A DNA stretch of 64,000 bases, taken from the NCBI RefSeq assembly GCF_023571765.1, contig NZ_JAMJXC010000002.1, positions 1 through 64,000 of the forward strand, given 5' to 3'. Positions within the stretch are counted from its first letter, which is position 1. Each line of letters opens with the position of its first letter. Origin of the DNA: Xanthobacter aminoxidans. GTDB lineage: Bacteria; Pseudomonadota; Alphaproteobacteria; Rhizobiales; Xanthobacteraceae. Position numbers and translations under genes: made by a program. Below are positions 58,016 to 64,000 of this stretch, one piece after another. The notes beneath the pieces are model-generated. The model was not told the origin of the DNA and did not search any database. It worked only from the letters and a program-made list of their open reading frames with translations.

Positions 58016-59437
58016 TCAGATGGAAAGCCCCGCTGCAGGACAGGCGGGCGGGGGCATCTCGGCCGCAAGGCCCGCAGCGGCCGAAAGCAGCGCCATGTCG
58101 GCGTTCCACCGTCCCACCAGTTGCACGGCGAGCGGACCGCCATTTTCCGCAAGCCCGATCGGAACGGCGAGCGCGGGGTGGCCGGAAAGGTCGAACAGGG
58201 ACAGGGCCGAAGTCCATTCCGCCCGCAGCGGACCGACCGCCTCGCCGTCGATCACCAGCGGCTCGGAGAGGTCGAAGTCCGCAGCGACCAGCGGTGCGGA
58301 GAGGCAGGGGGTGAGGATGAAGTCGTACTGCGCGAACTTCGCCTGAACGCCCCGGAACAACTGGGCGCGGGCCACCTGCGCCCGCATCAGGTCGAGCGCA
58401 CTGAAGCCCCGCGCGGCCTCGATTCCAGCCCGCAGCGCCGGCGACAGCCGCGCGAAATCCTCTGCGGAGGTCGAGGCGAAACGCAGCGCCCAGTTGGTCT
58501 GCTGCAGGGTGCTCCAGATCGGATCGGGCGCGACGAGGGCGTAGTCCTCCTCGACCACCACTGCGCCGAGCCGCTCCAGTGCGCGCGCAGCCGCCCGGGT
58601 CGCCGCCTCGACCTCGCGTGAGACGCGGGCGTTGCCCGTGCGCATCCACAGGAGCACGCGGGCACCCTCCAGACCTGCCGCAGCCGGCGCGAGCGAGGGT
58701 GCCCGCAGGCTCCAGGGGTCGGCTGGTAACGGGCCGGCGATCACGGGCAGCGTCGCCGCGATATCTGCCACGCTGCGGGCGATCAGCCCGAGATGGATGA
58801 AGCTGCCGAAGGCATCGGGCACCCGCTCGTGCGGCACGAGGCCGAGGGTGGGCTTGAAGCCATAGGTCCCCGTCGCGGCGGCAGGCAGGCGGCTAGAACA
58901 GCCGGCGTCGGTGGCGAGCGACACCGGTGTCACTCCCAGCGCGACGCTCGCTCCGGCACCGGAGGAGGACCCGCCGCAGGTGAGGTCCGGCGCGAAGGGA
59001 TTGAGCGTCAGGCCCGTAGGGGGCGACGACCCGAGCGGCGAATGGGCGAATTCCGTCGTCGTCGTCTTGCCGATGATGATGGCGCCCGCCGCCCTGAGCC
59101 GCGCCACGGCAGCGATATCCGAAGCCGCTGGCTGAGCCTCGGCGAACAGAAGCGACCCCCAGCGTGTCGGCAGGCCGGCACAGTCCAGGATGTCCTTGAC
59201 CGTGACGGGCACACCGGTGAGCGGCCCCGGCGTCTTTCCGGCGGCGATGCCGGCGTCAATGTCTGCCGCCGCAGGGCGGGCCCCCGCGCCATCGAGGGTG
59301 GCGAAGCAGTTGAAGCCGGCCTGTGCCGCCTCCGCACGTGCCAGCGCCCCTTCAACCGTTTCCATCACCCGCTGCGTACCGGCAGAATGGGCGGCAGCAA
59401 GGCGCGCGACCGCGCTCTCTCCCATGTGACGTTCCAT
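58016..59437 (-). CDS. Amidase-signature family hydrolase
   Basis: 473 aa from the ATG at 59437, two bases past the stop of the upstream beta-subunit gene (a longer form to 59455 is possible). Catalytic lysine in VTVKDILD, cis-serine in CGGSSSGAGASVALG, and the nucleophile region LATDAGCSSRLPAA. The usual GGSIR of that last motif is GCSSR, an unusual change next to the nucleophilic serine, which is kept. It probably hydrolyses an amide to ammonia and an acid, before or after the dioxygenase step. Confidence 0.9.
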   Translation of the reverse strand: MERHMGESAVARLAAAHSAGTQRVMETVEGALARAEAAQAGFNCFATLDGAGARPAAADIDAGIAAGKTPGPLTGVPVTVKDILDCAGLPTRWGSLLFAEAQPAASDIAAVARLRAAGAIIIGKTTTTEFAHSPLGSSPPTGLTLNPFAPDLTCGGSSSGAGASVALGVTPVSLATDAGCSSRLPAAATGTYGFKPTLGLVPHERVPDAFGSFIHLGLIARSVADIAATLPVIAGPLPADPWSLRAPSLAPAAAGLEGARVLLWMRTGNARVSREVEAATRAAARALERLGAVVVEEDYALVAPDPIWSTLQQTNWALRFASTSAEDFARLSPALRAGIEAARGFSALDLMRAQVARAQLFRGVQAKFAQYDFILTPCLSAPLVAADFDLSEPLVIDGEAVGPLRAEWTSALSLFDLSGHPALAVPIGLAENGGPLAVQLVGRWNADMALLSAAAGLAAEMPPPACPAAGLSI

Positions 59438-59439
59438 GC

Positions 59440-59961
59440 TCACACCGGGATGCACAAGGCGTTGTCGATGAGCAGGCTGTCATAGATGCAGATGCGCGAG
59501 GCGAGCTTGAGTCCCCCCTCCTCCCGCACGAAGCGGTCGATATAGCGACCCACCTGATGGATGGTGGCGTCCGGCCGGTCGAACAGCACCTGGAACACCA
59601 CATAGTTCGCGGTTGCGTCGATGCTGCCATCCACCGCCTCGGCGACCTTCAGATTGCCCACCATGTGCCGCAGATAGCGCGGCGCGAACATGGCGGTCTT
59701 CTCCAGCGCGAAGGCGCGGTCGCGAATCATGCCGCGGTTCTCGCAATAGATGAGGCCTACGGGGAGCTTCCGGTCGTAGTTCTCGCGGGAGATGATGTTG
59801 TAGAAGCCGTTGACGGTGAACATCTCGGCCCAGTCCGCGAGGCGCTGCTCGTCGAGGGCGGAGGCATAGGCCTCGTTGAAGGCCTCCACCTCTGCCTTCA
59901 GCAGCAGCGCATCGATGAGATCGTCACGGGAAGGCGCGTTGGCGCTTGAAGGATTCAGCAT
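59440..59961 (-). CDS. Aromatic ring-hydroxylating dioxygenase beta subunit
   Basis: 173 aa, cone-shaped SnoaL/NTF2-like fold of dioxygenase small subunits: EAFNEAYASALDEQRLADWAEMF, YNIISRENYDRKLPVGLIYCENRGM and the C-terminal IYDSLLIDNALCIPV strand. It resembles the anthranilate/benzoate type subunit. It provides structure to the alpha3beta3 enzyme. It lies 12 bp downstream of the fused alpha-subunit gene. Confidence 0.9.
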   Translation of the reverse strand: MLNPSSANAPSRDDLIDALLLKAEVEAFNEAYASALDEQRLADWAEMFTVNGFYNIISRENYDRKLPVGLIYCENRGMIRDRAFALEKTAMFAPRYLRHMVGNLKVAEAVDGSIDATANYVVFQVLFDRPDATIHQVGRYIDRFVREEGGLKLASRICIYDSLLIDNALCIPV

Positions 59962-59973
59962 GTTCGCGCCTCC

Positions 59974-62850
59974 TCAGGCGATGCCCATGGCGTCGCGCCA
60001 GTGGCGGTACATGGCACGGATGGCCGCTTCCGAAATGAGCGTATCGGCGGTACCCGCCTCGGTGCCGGGATCGAGCTTCACCAGATGCTCGCCACCCGGC
60101 ACGCCCAGCATGCCGTCCTGCACGAACTTGATGGCCTCGTTGTCCTCCAGCCCCAGGAAGCCGGCCGGCCCCATGAGGTTGCCCTGGCGCAGGCGATGGC
60201 GGGTCATCTCCTCGTCGTCACCCTCGAAGCCGAACATGGTCCATTTCATGATGAATTCGTTCGGACCGGTCGGCACGATGTGACGGATGCCTAGCGTGTT
60301 CATCTCCCGCTGCACGATGAGGTTCGGCCAGATGGTCGCCATGGTGACGGACCAGGGGCTGTCGAACTCGTCGATGAAGTCCATGAAGCGCGGCTCCTCA
60401 AGGGTCATGCCCTCCTTGTAGGCGCGCATTTCCTTCTTCTTGTCGGCGTCGATGTGGGTGGTGTCCGATTTGGCGGAAGCCATCACCCCGTGCCGGCCCG
60501 AAGGGTCCGCCAACATCAGCGACTTGTTGCCCGCGACCAGCAGGCCGAACGTGACCAGGAAGGTGTGCAGCAGGGTTGCGTGATAGGGGTCCTTGAGGTT
60601 CTCGTGATAGAGCTTCCAGTTGCCCGGCAGGCTATGGCGATAATGGCCGAGCAGCTTGGGCTTGCGGCCGTCAAAGGTGGCCTCGAACTCCCGCAGCACC
60701 TCAGGTCCGAGATACTCGGGGAAGCTCTCCATGCCGTCGGCATAGGAGGCGAAGACGACGCCGCGATGCGTGGTGACGTTGAGTTGCTTCAGGCCATGGT
60801 CGGCCGGCTTGAAGTCCTTCGGCATGCCGCCCTTGCCGTCCACCCCACGGCGGAAGGGCACGCCCACGAGGTTGCCCTTCAAATCGTAGGACCACTGGTG
60901 ATAGGGGCAGACGAACTCCTTGGCATTGCCCGACAAATCCCGGCAGAACTCGGCCGCGCGATGGGCGCAGCGGTTCTCGAAGACGTGGATCGTGCCGTCT
61001 TCCGCGCGGGCCACCACCACGGGGGTCGGGCCGACATTGGAGCGGATGAAGTCGCCGGGATTCTCGATCTCGCATTCCAGCGCGACGAAATTCCAGGTGC
61101 GGCCGTGGAAGATGCGCTCAACCTCGCGCTGGTACACGGTTTCGTCGGTGTAGACCCAGTCGGGGATGATGGACAGGCCTTCCTGCGGCCACACATATTT
61201 CTTGGCGAACTGGACGTCGGGGCTCGCGCTCATGTCGTCCTCCTCGGGATCGATTGGCGTGGGATTGGTTTCTTGGGGTGCAAGAAGACGCGCGCCGTGG
61301 GCGGCAAGGTCGAAGGGGGTGTCGGATACCAGTTCCGCGCGGGCGGCGCGGATGGCGGCGGCATCGGAGAAGGCGATCACGGCCGTGACGCGGCCGTCGG
61401 CGAGGGTGCGGTAGACGGCGCCGGCCGCACCATCGGTGCCAGTCAAGGCCACTTCATTTCCAGTTCCGGGCACGCCCAGCATCTGGATGTTGAGGCCGAA
61501 CTGGTCGGTCCAGAACCACGGCGCCTTCTCAGTGCGCGCGGCGGTGTCGCCGGCGATGCTGCGGCCGGCGGCGGCGCCTTGCTCCTCGGCATTCCGCCAG
61601 CTCTCCAGCCGGCCGCGCCGGCCGTCGAGGGGCACATGGTGGAGCGCGCAATCGCCCGCCGCCCAGATGCCGTCGACGCTGGTGCGCCCGAACGCATCCA
61701 CCACGATCCCGCCCGCGACCTCGCAGCCGGCAAGGGCCGCAAGCGCGGTCTCCGGCACGAGGCCCACACCCACCAGCACGGTGTCGGCAAAGATCTCGCC
61801 AGTTGTCGTCGCGAGCGCCAGAGCCCCGTCCCGCGCAGTGATGGCTTCCACCGCAACATCGCGTCGGACCTCGACGCCATGGGCTTCGGCAAGCCGACGG
61901 AAGGCCGCGCCGAGGGCGGGCGGCAGGAGGCGCGACATCAGCTCGCCCTCGCGCTCCAGCAGCACGACCTTGAGGCCGCGCGCCCGGGCGGCAGAGGCGA
62001 GTTCCAATCCGATGAAGCCGCCGCCCACCACCGCGACCGTGCGCGCGGACGCCAGGGACGCCGCGATGGCCTCCGCATCCTCAAGGGTGCGCAGGTGGTG
62101 AACACCCGGCAGATCATCGCCGGGAATACCGAGGCGCCGGGCCGTTCCGCCAGTGGCGATGAGTAGGGCGCCATAGGGAATTTGCGCGTTATCCGAGAGG
62201 GTTGCGACCCGCGCCTCCGCATCGACAGCTGTGACGCGTACGCCCGGATGGAAGGTCACGCCCAGCGCCGCCACGTCGGCGGGCGGCAGGCGACAGGCGG
62301 ACGCGCGATCGAAGGCGTCGCCAAGCGCTTCCTTGGAGAGCGGAGGCCGCTCATAGGGCAGATGCGGCTCGGCGCCGACGAGGTGGATGGGAGCCGAAAA
62401 ACCGGCCGCCCGTGCTGCGCGGATGGCGGCGGCGGCGGCCTGTCCGGCCCCGGCGATGACCAGGGGCAGGGAGCTTCCGCCCGTGTTTTCAGCTACTTGA
62501 ACCTCTTCCAGCGGTCCGGCATCAGAAGGGCTCTCGCTGGCGCTATCGAGGTCCACGAACACCGCGCCGCCCTCCACCTTGGCGGCATAGGTGGCGAGGT
62601 CCTGGGTGAGAGGGGCGCACAGGGCGCGGCCGGTGCGGATGTCGAAGACGCCCTGGTGGAGGGGGCATTCGATGGTGCCGTCCTCCACATAGCCGTCCTT
62701 CAGGAAGGCCAGCGCGTGGGTGCAGATACCATGGGTGGCGTGAACCTCATTTCCCATACGAAACAAGGCGATAGGGACACCATCCACCTCGACGCCGGTG
62801 ACGCCGCCGTCGCGCAGCGCGTCGAGTTCCGCCACCTTTCTGAAACCCAT
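59974..62850 (-). CDS. Fused Rieske ferredoxin - ferredoxin reductase - dioxygenase alpha subunit
   Basis: 958 aa in one frame. Residues 1-105: Rieske ferredoxin (C43-x-H45, C62-x2-H65). Residues about 128-530: FAD/NADH ferredoxin reductase (VIAGAGQAAAAAIRAARA, RPPLSKEAL, VVGGGFIGLELASA, GIWAAGDCA). Residues 540-958: catalytic alpha subunit with its Rieske centre (C628, H630, C648, H651) and mononuclear iron ligands in DPYHATLLH (H757, H762). It would carry electrons from NADH to the active site within one chain. The ATG at 62850 has GGGAGGACG. An internal ATG at 61233 has a perfect GAGGAGG five to six bases upstream, so a separate 419-aa alpha subunit may also be made. It is followed by the beta subunit and amidase. 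Confidence 0.9.
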   Translation of the reverse strand: MGFRKVAELDALRDGGVTGVEVDGVPIALFRMGNEVHATHGICTHALAFLKDGYVEDGTIECPLHQGVFDIRTGRALCAPLTQDLATYAAKVEGGAVFVDLDSASESPSDAGPLEEVQVAENTGGSSLPLVIAGAGQAAAAAIRAARAAGFSAPIHLVGAEPHLPYERPPLSKEALGDAFDRASACRLPPADVAALGVTFHPGVRVTAVDAEARVATLSDNAQIPYGALLIATGGTARRLGIPGDDLPGVHHLRTLEDAEAIAASLASARTVAVVGGGFIGLELASAARARGLKVVLLEREGELMSRLLPPALGAAFRRLAEAHGVEVRRDVAVEAITARDGALALATTTGEIFADTVLVGVGLVPETALAALAGCEVAGGIVVDAFGRTSVDGIWAAGDCALHHVPLDGRRGRLESWRNAEEQGAAAGRSIAGDTAARTEKAPWFWTDQFGLNIQMLGVPGTGNEVALTGTDGAAGAVYRTLADGRVTAVIAFSDAAAIRAARAELVSDTPFDLAAHGARLLAPQETNPTPIDPEEDDMSASPDVQFAKKYVWPQEGLSIIPDWVYTDETVYQREVERIFHGRTWNFVALECEIENPGDFIRSNVGPTPVVVARAEDGTIHVFENRCAHRAAEFCRDLSGNAKEFVCPYHQWSYDLKGNLVGVPFRRGVDGKGGMPKDFKPADHGLKQLNVTTHRGVVFASYADGMESFPEYLGPEVLREFEATFDGRKPKLLGHYRHSLPGNWKLYHENLKDPYHATLLHTFLVTFGLLVAGNKSLMLADPSGRHGVMASAKSDTTHIDADKKKEMRAYKEGMTLEEPRFMDFIDEFDSPWSVTMATIWPNLIVQREMNTLGIRHIVPTGPNEFIMKWTMFGFEGDDEEMTRHRLRQGNLMGPAGFLGLEDNEAIKFVQDGMLGVPGGEHLVKLDPGTEAGTADTLISEAAIRAMYRHWRDAMGIA

Positions 62851-62936: not shown

Positions 62937-64000
62937 TCAGTTCAGGTGGCGTTCCACCCAGGTTTTCACCCGTTCACACCACGTTGCCAGTACCACTTTG
63001 AAAATGCCGGTTGCCGAGAGTCCCGTCGCAGCGGTCGGCGCCTCCCCCTTCAGGGCGGCGGCGAGATTGGCCGCAAACACCCCCGTCAGGTGTGAGACGA
63101 GATTTTGCACGAGCGCCCCCCGTGAAAACTGGGCGAGGGGGCCGGAGATGCGGTAGCGCAGCGCGAGGTCGATGGCGCTGCCCGTGCCGGCCGGCTTCAG
63201 GGCGAAGGTGATCTCGCCATGGGCTCTTGAGCCGGAGCCACCGTCCCGGCCGGAGCCGTTGACGAGGCCGGTCCGGGCGGCGTCGTCGAAGGTCACGGTG
63301 GCGTCGCCGCCGAAGGCCGCCTTGATGGGGCCGAAGGTGACGACCATGCGGCCCTCCAGCCGCTCCCCGTCGAAGGCCGTGACCTCGGCACCGGGCAGGC
63401 AGCGGGCGATGAGGTGGATGTCCTTCAGCGCCGGCCAGACGACCTCCGGCGCGGCATCCACCGTGAGGCTCTGGCGGATCTCGCTGCCGCCCGCGCCCAC
63501 CACCGCCGGCGCCGACGCGGCCTTCACAGCGGAAGCCGCAGCAGCCACCGGCGCGGGCGCGGCAGCAGCCGCGATGCCGGCCGCCTCCGCCTGTGCGCAC
63601 GGCGCCTTTCCGGCCGAGACGGCGCAGACGGCGTTCACGATGCCCACATAGCCGGTGCAGCGGCAGAGGTTGCCGCTCAGTTCCTCACGCACCGTGCGCT
63701 CGGAACTCTCCCCCAGGCGGCTCACGATGTCGCGGGAGGAGATGAGCATGCCCGGCGTGCAGAAGCCGCACTGGAGCGCATGATGGACGGAGAAGGCCTC
63801 GCGCAGCTCGCCCATCAGCGCATCGCCATCGAAGCCCTCGATGGTGCGGATGTCCGCCCCGTCGCAGGCGGCGGCGGAGGCGATGCAGGAGCGCTGCGGC
63901 TTGCCGTCGATGAGCACGGTGCAGGCGCCGCACACCCCCTGCTCGCAGCCGAGATGCGTGCCGGTGAGGTTCAGTTCCTCGCGCAGGAAATCGGCGAGAT
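62937..64000 (-). CDS. [2Fe-2S] small subunit of molybdenum hydroxylase type fused to CoxG domain (partial)
   Basis: Cut by the window end; at least 354 codons are present. The first part carries two [2Fe-2S] motifs: the plant-type loop EQGVCGACTVLIDG with its cysteines, and CGFCTPG with a later LCRCTGY, as in CoxS/xanthine dehydrogenase small subunits. An alanine-rich linker leads to a C-terminal CoxG-like SRPBCC domain (VDAAPEVVWPALKDIHLIARCLPGAE) and a hydrophobic/amphipathic tail for membrane contact. It passes electrons from a molybdenum hydroxylase acting on a heterocycle, aldehyde or CO; the large subunits must lie outside the window. Confidence 0.88.
   Translation of the reverse strand, partial: LADFLREELNLTGTHLGCEQGVCGACTVLIDGKPQRSCIASAAACDGADIRTIEGFDGDALMGELREAFSVHHALQCGFCTPGMLISSRDIVSRLGESSERTVREELSGNLCRCTGYVGIVNAVCAVSAGKAPCAQAEAAGIAAAAAPAPVAAAASAVKAASAPAVVGAGGSEIRQSLTVDAAPEVVWPALKDIHLIARCLPGAEVTAFDGERLEGRMVVTFGPIKAAFGGDATVTFDDAARTGLVNGSGRDGGSGSRAHGEITFALKPAGTGSAIDLALRYRISGPLAQFSRGALVQNLVSHLTGVFAANLAAALKGEAPTAATGLSATGIFKVVLATWCERVKTWVERHLN

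Follow-up and report, generated by a model that had tools for sequence, protein, structure and literature searches.

Our analysis of a 64,000-nucleotide stretch of DNA from the soil-type bacterium Xanthobacter aminoxidans (contig NZ_JAMJXC010000002.1, positions 1–64,000; hereafter the window) identifies a gene whose one open reading frame (ORF) holds the predicted NADH reductase, electron carrier and oxygenase of a Rieske non-haem-iron oxygenase system, and which keeps, at the junction of its reductase and alpha-subunit parts, an in-frame start codon with a strong Shine–Dalgarno site that nearly all of its fused relatives share. There is, in our estimation, a good probability that the gene encodes a naturally self-sufficient Rieske oxygenase and has been selected to make free alpha subunit too, with mixed alpha3beta3 complexes that would carry fewer reductase arms. 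The parts of the gene, with its beta-subunit neighbour, are as follows.

59974..62850, minus strand: 958-residue fusion of a Rieske ferredoxin, a glutathione-reductase-type flavin adenine dinucleotide (FAD)/NADH reductase and a Rieske oxygenase alpha subunit (frame, Pfam)
62554..62835, minus strand: Rieske ferredoxin domain, residues 6–99 (PF00355/PF13806; ligands C43, H45, C62, H65)
61306..62463, minus strand: FAD/NADH ferredoxin reductase domain of the BphA4/HcaD type, residues 130–515 (PF07992, PF14759)
61234..61305, minus strand: reductase–alpha linker, residues 516–539 (526–550 predicted disordered, predicted local distance difference test [pLDDT] <50)
61239..61245, minus strand: GAGGAGG Shine–Dalgarno site inside the coding frame, 5 nt ahead of the internal ATG at 61233
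59974..61233, minus strand: alpha subunit, 419 residues if read from the internal ATG at 61233 (ORF, PF00355 and PF00848)
59440..59961, minus strand: beta subunit, 173 residues, with its own GAGGAGG site (PF00866; NF041685 AndAd below cut-off)

The continuity of ferredoxin, reductase and alpha subunit in one frame, noted in a first-pass annotation made from the sequence alone, is borne out by the single 958-codon open frame at window positions 59974–62850 (minus strand) and by Pfam, which places on its product Rieske matches in two stretches (the best at 6–88), Pyr_redox_2 (130–425), Reductase_C (445–515) and Ring_hydroxyl_A (738–956). The ferredoxin ligands C43, H45, C62 and H65 are present in the window protein and invariant in all 50 aligned fusions described below, as are the alpha residues C628, H630, C648, H651, D754, H757, H762 and D903 (fusion numbering), which we take to be the Rieske ligands (C628, H630, C648, H651), the iron ligands (H757, H762, D903) and the bridging aspartate (D754). 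By its residues, therefore, the alpha domain has the Rieske CxH...CxxH pattern, the 2-His-1-carboxylate set and the bridging Asp. The reductase domain matches HcaD (NF042949) and AndAa in NCBIfam, both below cut-off, and its structure matches include BphA4 and the reductase of toluene dioxygenase; with a Rieske ferredoxin and a glutathione-reductase-type FAD reductase both present, the predicted system is of the three-component type. The beta-subunit gene beside alpha provides the partner for an alpha3beta3 oligomer, which is predicted from the genes. An AlphaFold model of the fusion consists mostly of folded domains (mean pLDDT 78.7, predicted template modelling score 0.52) with two low-confidence linkers, 108–125 and 526–550, predicted to be disordered, so that the relative placement of the domains is not given by the model; some stretches within the ferredoxin and alpha domains also fall below a pLDDT of 50.

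Relatives were collected by a scan of species genomes with six search peptides (one of which, IDPEEDDM, spans the junction and may favour very close relatives) and by further searches of family, order, class and phylum samples with the whole protein. The scan kept the best 80 of 176 candidate loci, and among these 38 were full fusions, 6 were ferredoxin–alpha fusions without reductase and 36 had alpha in its own frame. Altogether, 128 of 137 loci passed the filter (an alpha match at least 45% identical over >300 residues), the other 9 being other matches in the window's own genome; after removal of 19 duplicates, such that distinct genes are those whose last 900 nt are not identical, there remained 50 distinct full fusions (the window's own included), 6 ferredoxin–alpha fusions and 53 alpha-only frames. 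Fusion hosts by name include Xanthobacter, Bradyrhizobium, Rhodopseudomonas, Azospirillum, Roseomonas, Oceanibaculum and Alloalcanivorax, thus alpha- and gammaproteobacteria, and the nearest fusion (94%) lies on the complete chromosome of Xanthobacter sp. YC-JY1. Full-length matches were few, namely 16 in 391 sampled genomes of the family (own included), 3 in 397 of the order, 6 in 385 of the class and 3 in 398 of the phylum, in overlapping samples that each include the window's own genome, and we therefore regard the distribution of the gene as sporadic. The remark in the earlier annotation that such components are usually separate fits 29 relatives with a separate reductase, mostly from betaproteobacteria, in which ferredoxin, reductase and alpha are separate frames in the same order. 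A second alpha gene able to supply free alpha was not found in the window's genome, where the other alpha-region matches are at most 33% identical.

The perfect GAGGAGG and ATG at 61233 pointed out in the first-pass annotation are confirmed: the junction reads GAGGAGG-ACGAC-ATG, with an anti-Shine–Dalgarno duplex energy at the internal ATG of -11.3 kcal/mol, next to -10.2 for the fusion's own start and -11.2 for the beta start, and it is stronger than chance in-frame ATGs. When a junction start is counted as an in-frame ATG or GTG with a duplex energy of -6 or lower, it is kept in 47, 48 or 49 of the 50 fusions, according to the linker boundary chosen; the codon is ATG in 43 of the 50 linkers and GTG in the others that keep one, and one fusion (L037) owes its place in the count to an ATG 39 codons ahead of the WP motif of alpha and is doubtful. 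The linkers concerned (aligned residues 516–550) are 20–59 residues long and share a mean pairwise identity of 15% among the fusions, the corresponding values for alpha and reductase being 80% and 51%.

Chance purine-rich codons, as a source of the junction site, were set against other in-frame ATGs, codon permutation, synonymous resampling and the second junction of the same genes, and were rejected. The 50 fused genes contain 1011 other in-frame ATGs, of which 9.4% have a duplex energy of -6 or lower and 1.8% one of -8 or lower, and 17% of 1351 interior 30-codon windows hold an ATG or GTG at threshold strength. Permutation of the linker codons leads one to expect 9.7 starts in 50 (P 6e-44), and synonymous resampling 21.4 (P 8e-25); within a set of 21 linkers less than 50% alike, a start is present in 20, against 4.2 expected by permutation (P 4e-16) and 9.0 by synonymous resampling (P 5e-9). 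The ferredoxin–reductase linker of the same genes, which serves as an internal control, shows no excess (12 in 50 versus 8.5 permuted and 17.6 synonymous; 13 in a second count). The internal sites match or exceed ordinary gene starts in strength, given that 30 of 50 beta starts and 33 of 52 starts of separate alpha genes attain the threshold. Moreover, RNA structure is weaker around the internal start than elsewhere in the gene (mean z +1.5) and weaker there than in synonymous versions (+0.8, with 84% above 0), the values at the ferredoxin–reductase linker being -0.2 and +0.24 (66% above 0), respectively. A start at threshold occurs in only 1 of the 6 ferredoxin–alpha fusions versus 48 of the 50 full fusions (Fisher P 3e-5). 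The spacings of 5–9 nt add little and are not counted as evidence, because the scoring window itself restricts them and ties were resolved in favour of 7. From these nucleotide comparisons, the start codon and its ribosome site are conserved beyond coding constraint. If, as the title of one study has it, Shine–Dalgarno sequences are depleted inside bacterial coding regions (PMC5100845), their retention at the junction would be the more notable.

We argue against the recent merger by loss of a stop codon that the first-pass annotation had proposed. The reductase domains of the 50 fusions form one clade (support 97/94) when placed with 29 separate reductases and 3 outgroup proteins, and the alpha domains of all fusions fall inside one 63-row clade (Shimodaira–Hasegawa-like approximate likelihood ratio test 99, quick method) that excludes the other 46 alpha-only rows. 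Nested within that clade are 6 ferredoxin–alpha and 7 alpha-only rows; as no reductase match was found in the DNA surrounding the latter (some with short flanks), they are read as later losses. Given the single reductase clade and the separate-gene relatives with the same gene order, it appears most likely that neighbouring genes of an operon were joined once, long ago. On these comparisons the fusion is old, because the linkers have diverged to about 15% identity, the spread covers alpha- and gammaproteobacteria and the reductases form one clade; since the fusion is old and the site is nevertheless present, the site would be not a fresh scar but something kept.

Several points weigh against the reading of the gene as a self-sufficient oxygenase that also supplies free alpha. 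On the alpha tree the fused label has to change 6 times, with 4 or more of the changes forced, and several inner forks are weak, so that by the alpha tree alone there may have been independent joins. One fusion (L122) lacks the site, its sister L037 has only the one 39 codons before the WP motif, and L028 is borderline at -5.8, which indicates that an internal start is not essential everywhere; in a Paracoccus fusion outside the 50 (L139) the site scores -5.9, just under the threshold. Synonymous resampling alone yields about 21 starts in 50, and the linker residues themselves thus account for part of the signal. The P-values treat genes as independent, and the set of 21 dissimilar linkers lessens shared descent but does not remove it. 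Finally, elongating ribosomes could, we reason, hinder initiation within the gene.

Among the alternatives, the one that survives best, improbable as it is, holds that the site is a vestige of a formerly separate alpha gene, without present function, and that only the 958-residue protein matters. Its origin would be obvious, given that the separate-gene relatives have a start codon at the matching place (33 of 52 at threshold), but the start has survived in 47–49 of 50 fusions despite the 15% identity and varied length of the linkers, sometimes as GTG and at varied distances from the conserved WP motif, while the other merged junction of the same gene has no excess (12 of 50) and only 1 of the 6 ferredoxin–alpha fusions without reductase shows a start this strong. 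Marginally less probable is translational pausing, in which a purine-rich site would slow elongating ribosomes at a domain boundary and aid folding without any initiation; that the strongest site falls within a linker separating large domains (median best energy over a 35-codon stretch -9.3, versus -6.6 over 30-codon stretches inside the reductase) agrees with it, yet a start codon, dispensable for pausing, has been kept alongside the site as an in-frame ATG or GTG, and the ferredoxin–reductase boundary shows little (median -7.0). We give slightly less credence again to proteolysis, whereby the whole fusion would be made and then cut in its disordered linkers so that the parts work separately: both linkers (108–125 and 526–550) are indeed predicted to be disordered, but cutting leaves the conservation of ribosome site and start codon at the nucleotide level unexplained. 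A sequencing or assembly error that hid a stop or frameshift at the junction is ruled out for practical purposes, since the comparison of relatives suggested in the first-pass annotation finds the junction open in the same way in 49 further distinct genes, which come from other assemblies, the complete chromosome of Xanthobacter sp. YC-JY1 among them (an open junction being part of the definition of a full fusion, and so not a separate test).

We therefore return to a self-sufficient oxygenase with its own supply of free alpha, for which the following mechanism is suggested. NADH would reduce the FAD of the middle reductase domain, electrons would then move through the tethered N-terminal Rieske ferredoxin to the Rieske centre of alpha, the C-terminal domain, and an aromatic or pyridine carboxylate would be oxidized by the mononuclear iron of alpha, with the separate beta subunit completing the alpha3beta3 complex. 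The Shine–Dalgarno site and start codon in the linker would let ribosomes also begin at alpha, and one mRNA would thus give both the 958-residue fusion and a free alpha subunit of about 419 residues. Mixed trimers would then have fewer reductase modules than active sites, and oxygenase would again outnumber reductase, as it can when the genes are separate. The possibility, already raised in the earlier annotation, that the gene gives the fusion, free alpha or both thus gains strong comparative support from a start kept in 47–49 of 50 fusions, and both products, the entire fusion and the catalytic part by itself, are probably made; the mixed alpha3beta3 assembly, also raised there, we infer only.

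The components are of known kinds, and it is the one-chain architecture with a conserved internal start that is new. The likeness to AndAcAdAbAa is the closest in NCBIfam for alpha (AndAc, 401 bits), beta (AndAd, 141) and ferredoxin (AndAb, 109–115), and AndAa (about 270) is the second best match of the reductase after HcaD; these scores fall under the equivalog cut-offs of 750 (alpha), 230 (beta), 150 (ferredoxin) and 650 (reductase), and identity with the anthranilate 1,2-dioxygenase AndA was rejected since all four were missed. A table in PMC2358900 pairs AndAc with a [2Fe-2S] ferredoxin and a glutathione-reductase-type FAD reductase; the And components are separate proteins, whereas the window gene has three in one chain with an internal start. 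The nearest solved structure for the alpha domain is that of the salicylate 5-hydroxylase NagGH (7c8z; 414 bits, 45% identity, template modelling score 0.89 by target length), NagGH in that entry being a separate oxygenase component, unlike the fused alpha; NagG is assigned to type III in the same paper (PMC2358900). The 6-hydroxypicolinate monooxygenase PicB was compared by gene context, in that pic-type genes flank many of the separate-gene relatives and some fusions; picB1–B4 are separate genes, unlike the window fusion. Self-sufficient P450s such as CYP116B likewise tether redox partners to the oxygenase in one chain, but their catalytic domain is unrelated, and the window system has its beta subunit as a separate protein and an internal start that is conserved. 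In the StyA1/StyA2B system the free oxygenase is a separate protein from its own gene, whereas here it would arise from an internal start in the same gene. A fused oxygenase–reductase beside a free oxygenase is what an extract of PMC6017014 describes for that system in Variovorax paradoxus EPS. No self-sufficient Rieske oxygenase has been identified according to the extract of a 2025 review (PMC12445004), and in openly licensed literature, represented mainly by titles and the openings of abstracts, we found no report of a natural one or of an internal start in one. We incline, on balance, to the view that these fusions are the first natural class of self-sufficient Rieske oxygenases with stoichiometry control of their own, in which the conserved in-frame start would supply free alpha and a single mRNA would give alpha3beta3 complexes with tuned, sub-stoichiometric tethered NADH reductase–ferredoxin arms.

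Individual relatives provide further observations. On a Paracoccus seriniphilus plasmid (L139:12001-14736) the frame is open through ferredoxin, reductase and alpha, and the PLSDB table, incomplete by its own description, begins the alpha coding sequence at the internal ATG and has no entry for the region upstream of it; annotation may miss fusions of this kind. The fusion L037 (CP051228.1) is from a record titled Mesoflavibacter (Bacteroidota) and groups with alphaproteobacterial ones, so the label may be wrong. The ferredoxin–alpha fusions without reductase (L057–L060, L064, L069) come from soil and other metagenomes. A Roseomonas acroporae fusion (L025:312-3377) has a Cys-containing repeat (CLPESCQPESCQPESCQTE) in its reductase–alpha linker, and in a separate-gene copy of Cupriavidus necator SHC 2-3 (L053, about 7605) TGA stands where the WP motif of alpha has its conserved Trp. 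An Ensifer sp. PDNC004 plasmid (NZ_CP070352.1, 1705906-1707204) gives one aligned piece that covers query residues 34–485 only (41%), perhaps a ferredoxin–reductase fusion without alpha.

Two further genes adjoin the system.

58016..59455, minus strand: amidase (PF01425), next downstream; in several other loci, too, the fusion has amidase relatives nearby
62937..64000, past the window end, minus strand: molybdenum-hydroxylase iron-sulfur subunit joined to a CoxG domain, upstream (Fer2, Fer2_2, COXG)

Beyond the window end (locus L138), FAD and molybdenum subunits follow the iron-sulfur subunit and give a three-subunit molybdenum hydroxylase. The iron-sulfur subunit and CoxG/SRPBCC in one frame (373 codons; L138:2937-4058, minus strand) are a second fusion beside the first. 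A MarR regulator, an NMT1-type binding protein and a TRAP transporter are also near the fusion, and genes for molybdenum hydroxylase, amidohydrolase, 2,5-dihydroxypyridine dioxygenase, isochorismatase and maleate isomerase recur near a number of relatives. According to PMC10142695, picB1B2B3B4 shares a cluster with picA1A2A3, the annotation of PicC is amidohydrolase, and the set from 2,5-dihydroxypyridine to fumarate and the MarR regulator PicR belong to the same cluster; judged by gene content, the recurring set of the relatives matches the picolinate pic cluster as described there. Within loci of at least 8.5 kb, an amidohydrolase taken as the PicC type occurs in 10 of 38 fusion loci versus 19 of 33 separate-gene loci. 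The best PicC-like match in the window's genome is 41% and lies on another contig, and queries for 2,5-dihydroxypyridine dioxygenase and maleate isomerase, run without a positive control, gave no match there; the pic pathway, which suits many relatives, was recovered only partially in this genome. A maleylacetoacetate-isomerase-type protein is encoded about 8 kb upstream of the fusion (L138:11122-11820, minus strand; 258.8 bits, cut-off 171), and in Bradyrhizobium (L014) a protein of this type is likewise encoded next to the fusion; for the gentisate route at which this isomerase hints, gentisate dioxygenase matches in the window's genome are below cut-off and on other contigs. Our best guess is that the substrate is a hydroxypicolinate- or salicylate-like acid.

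Finally, the fifty natural examples from one lineage would provide enzymes to start from and would reveal what order of domains and what linkers evolution accepts. If one-to-one fusions perform poorly, as they may, the conserved internal start suggests one cause, in that nature may dilute the reductase arm with free alpha.

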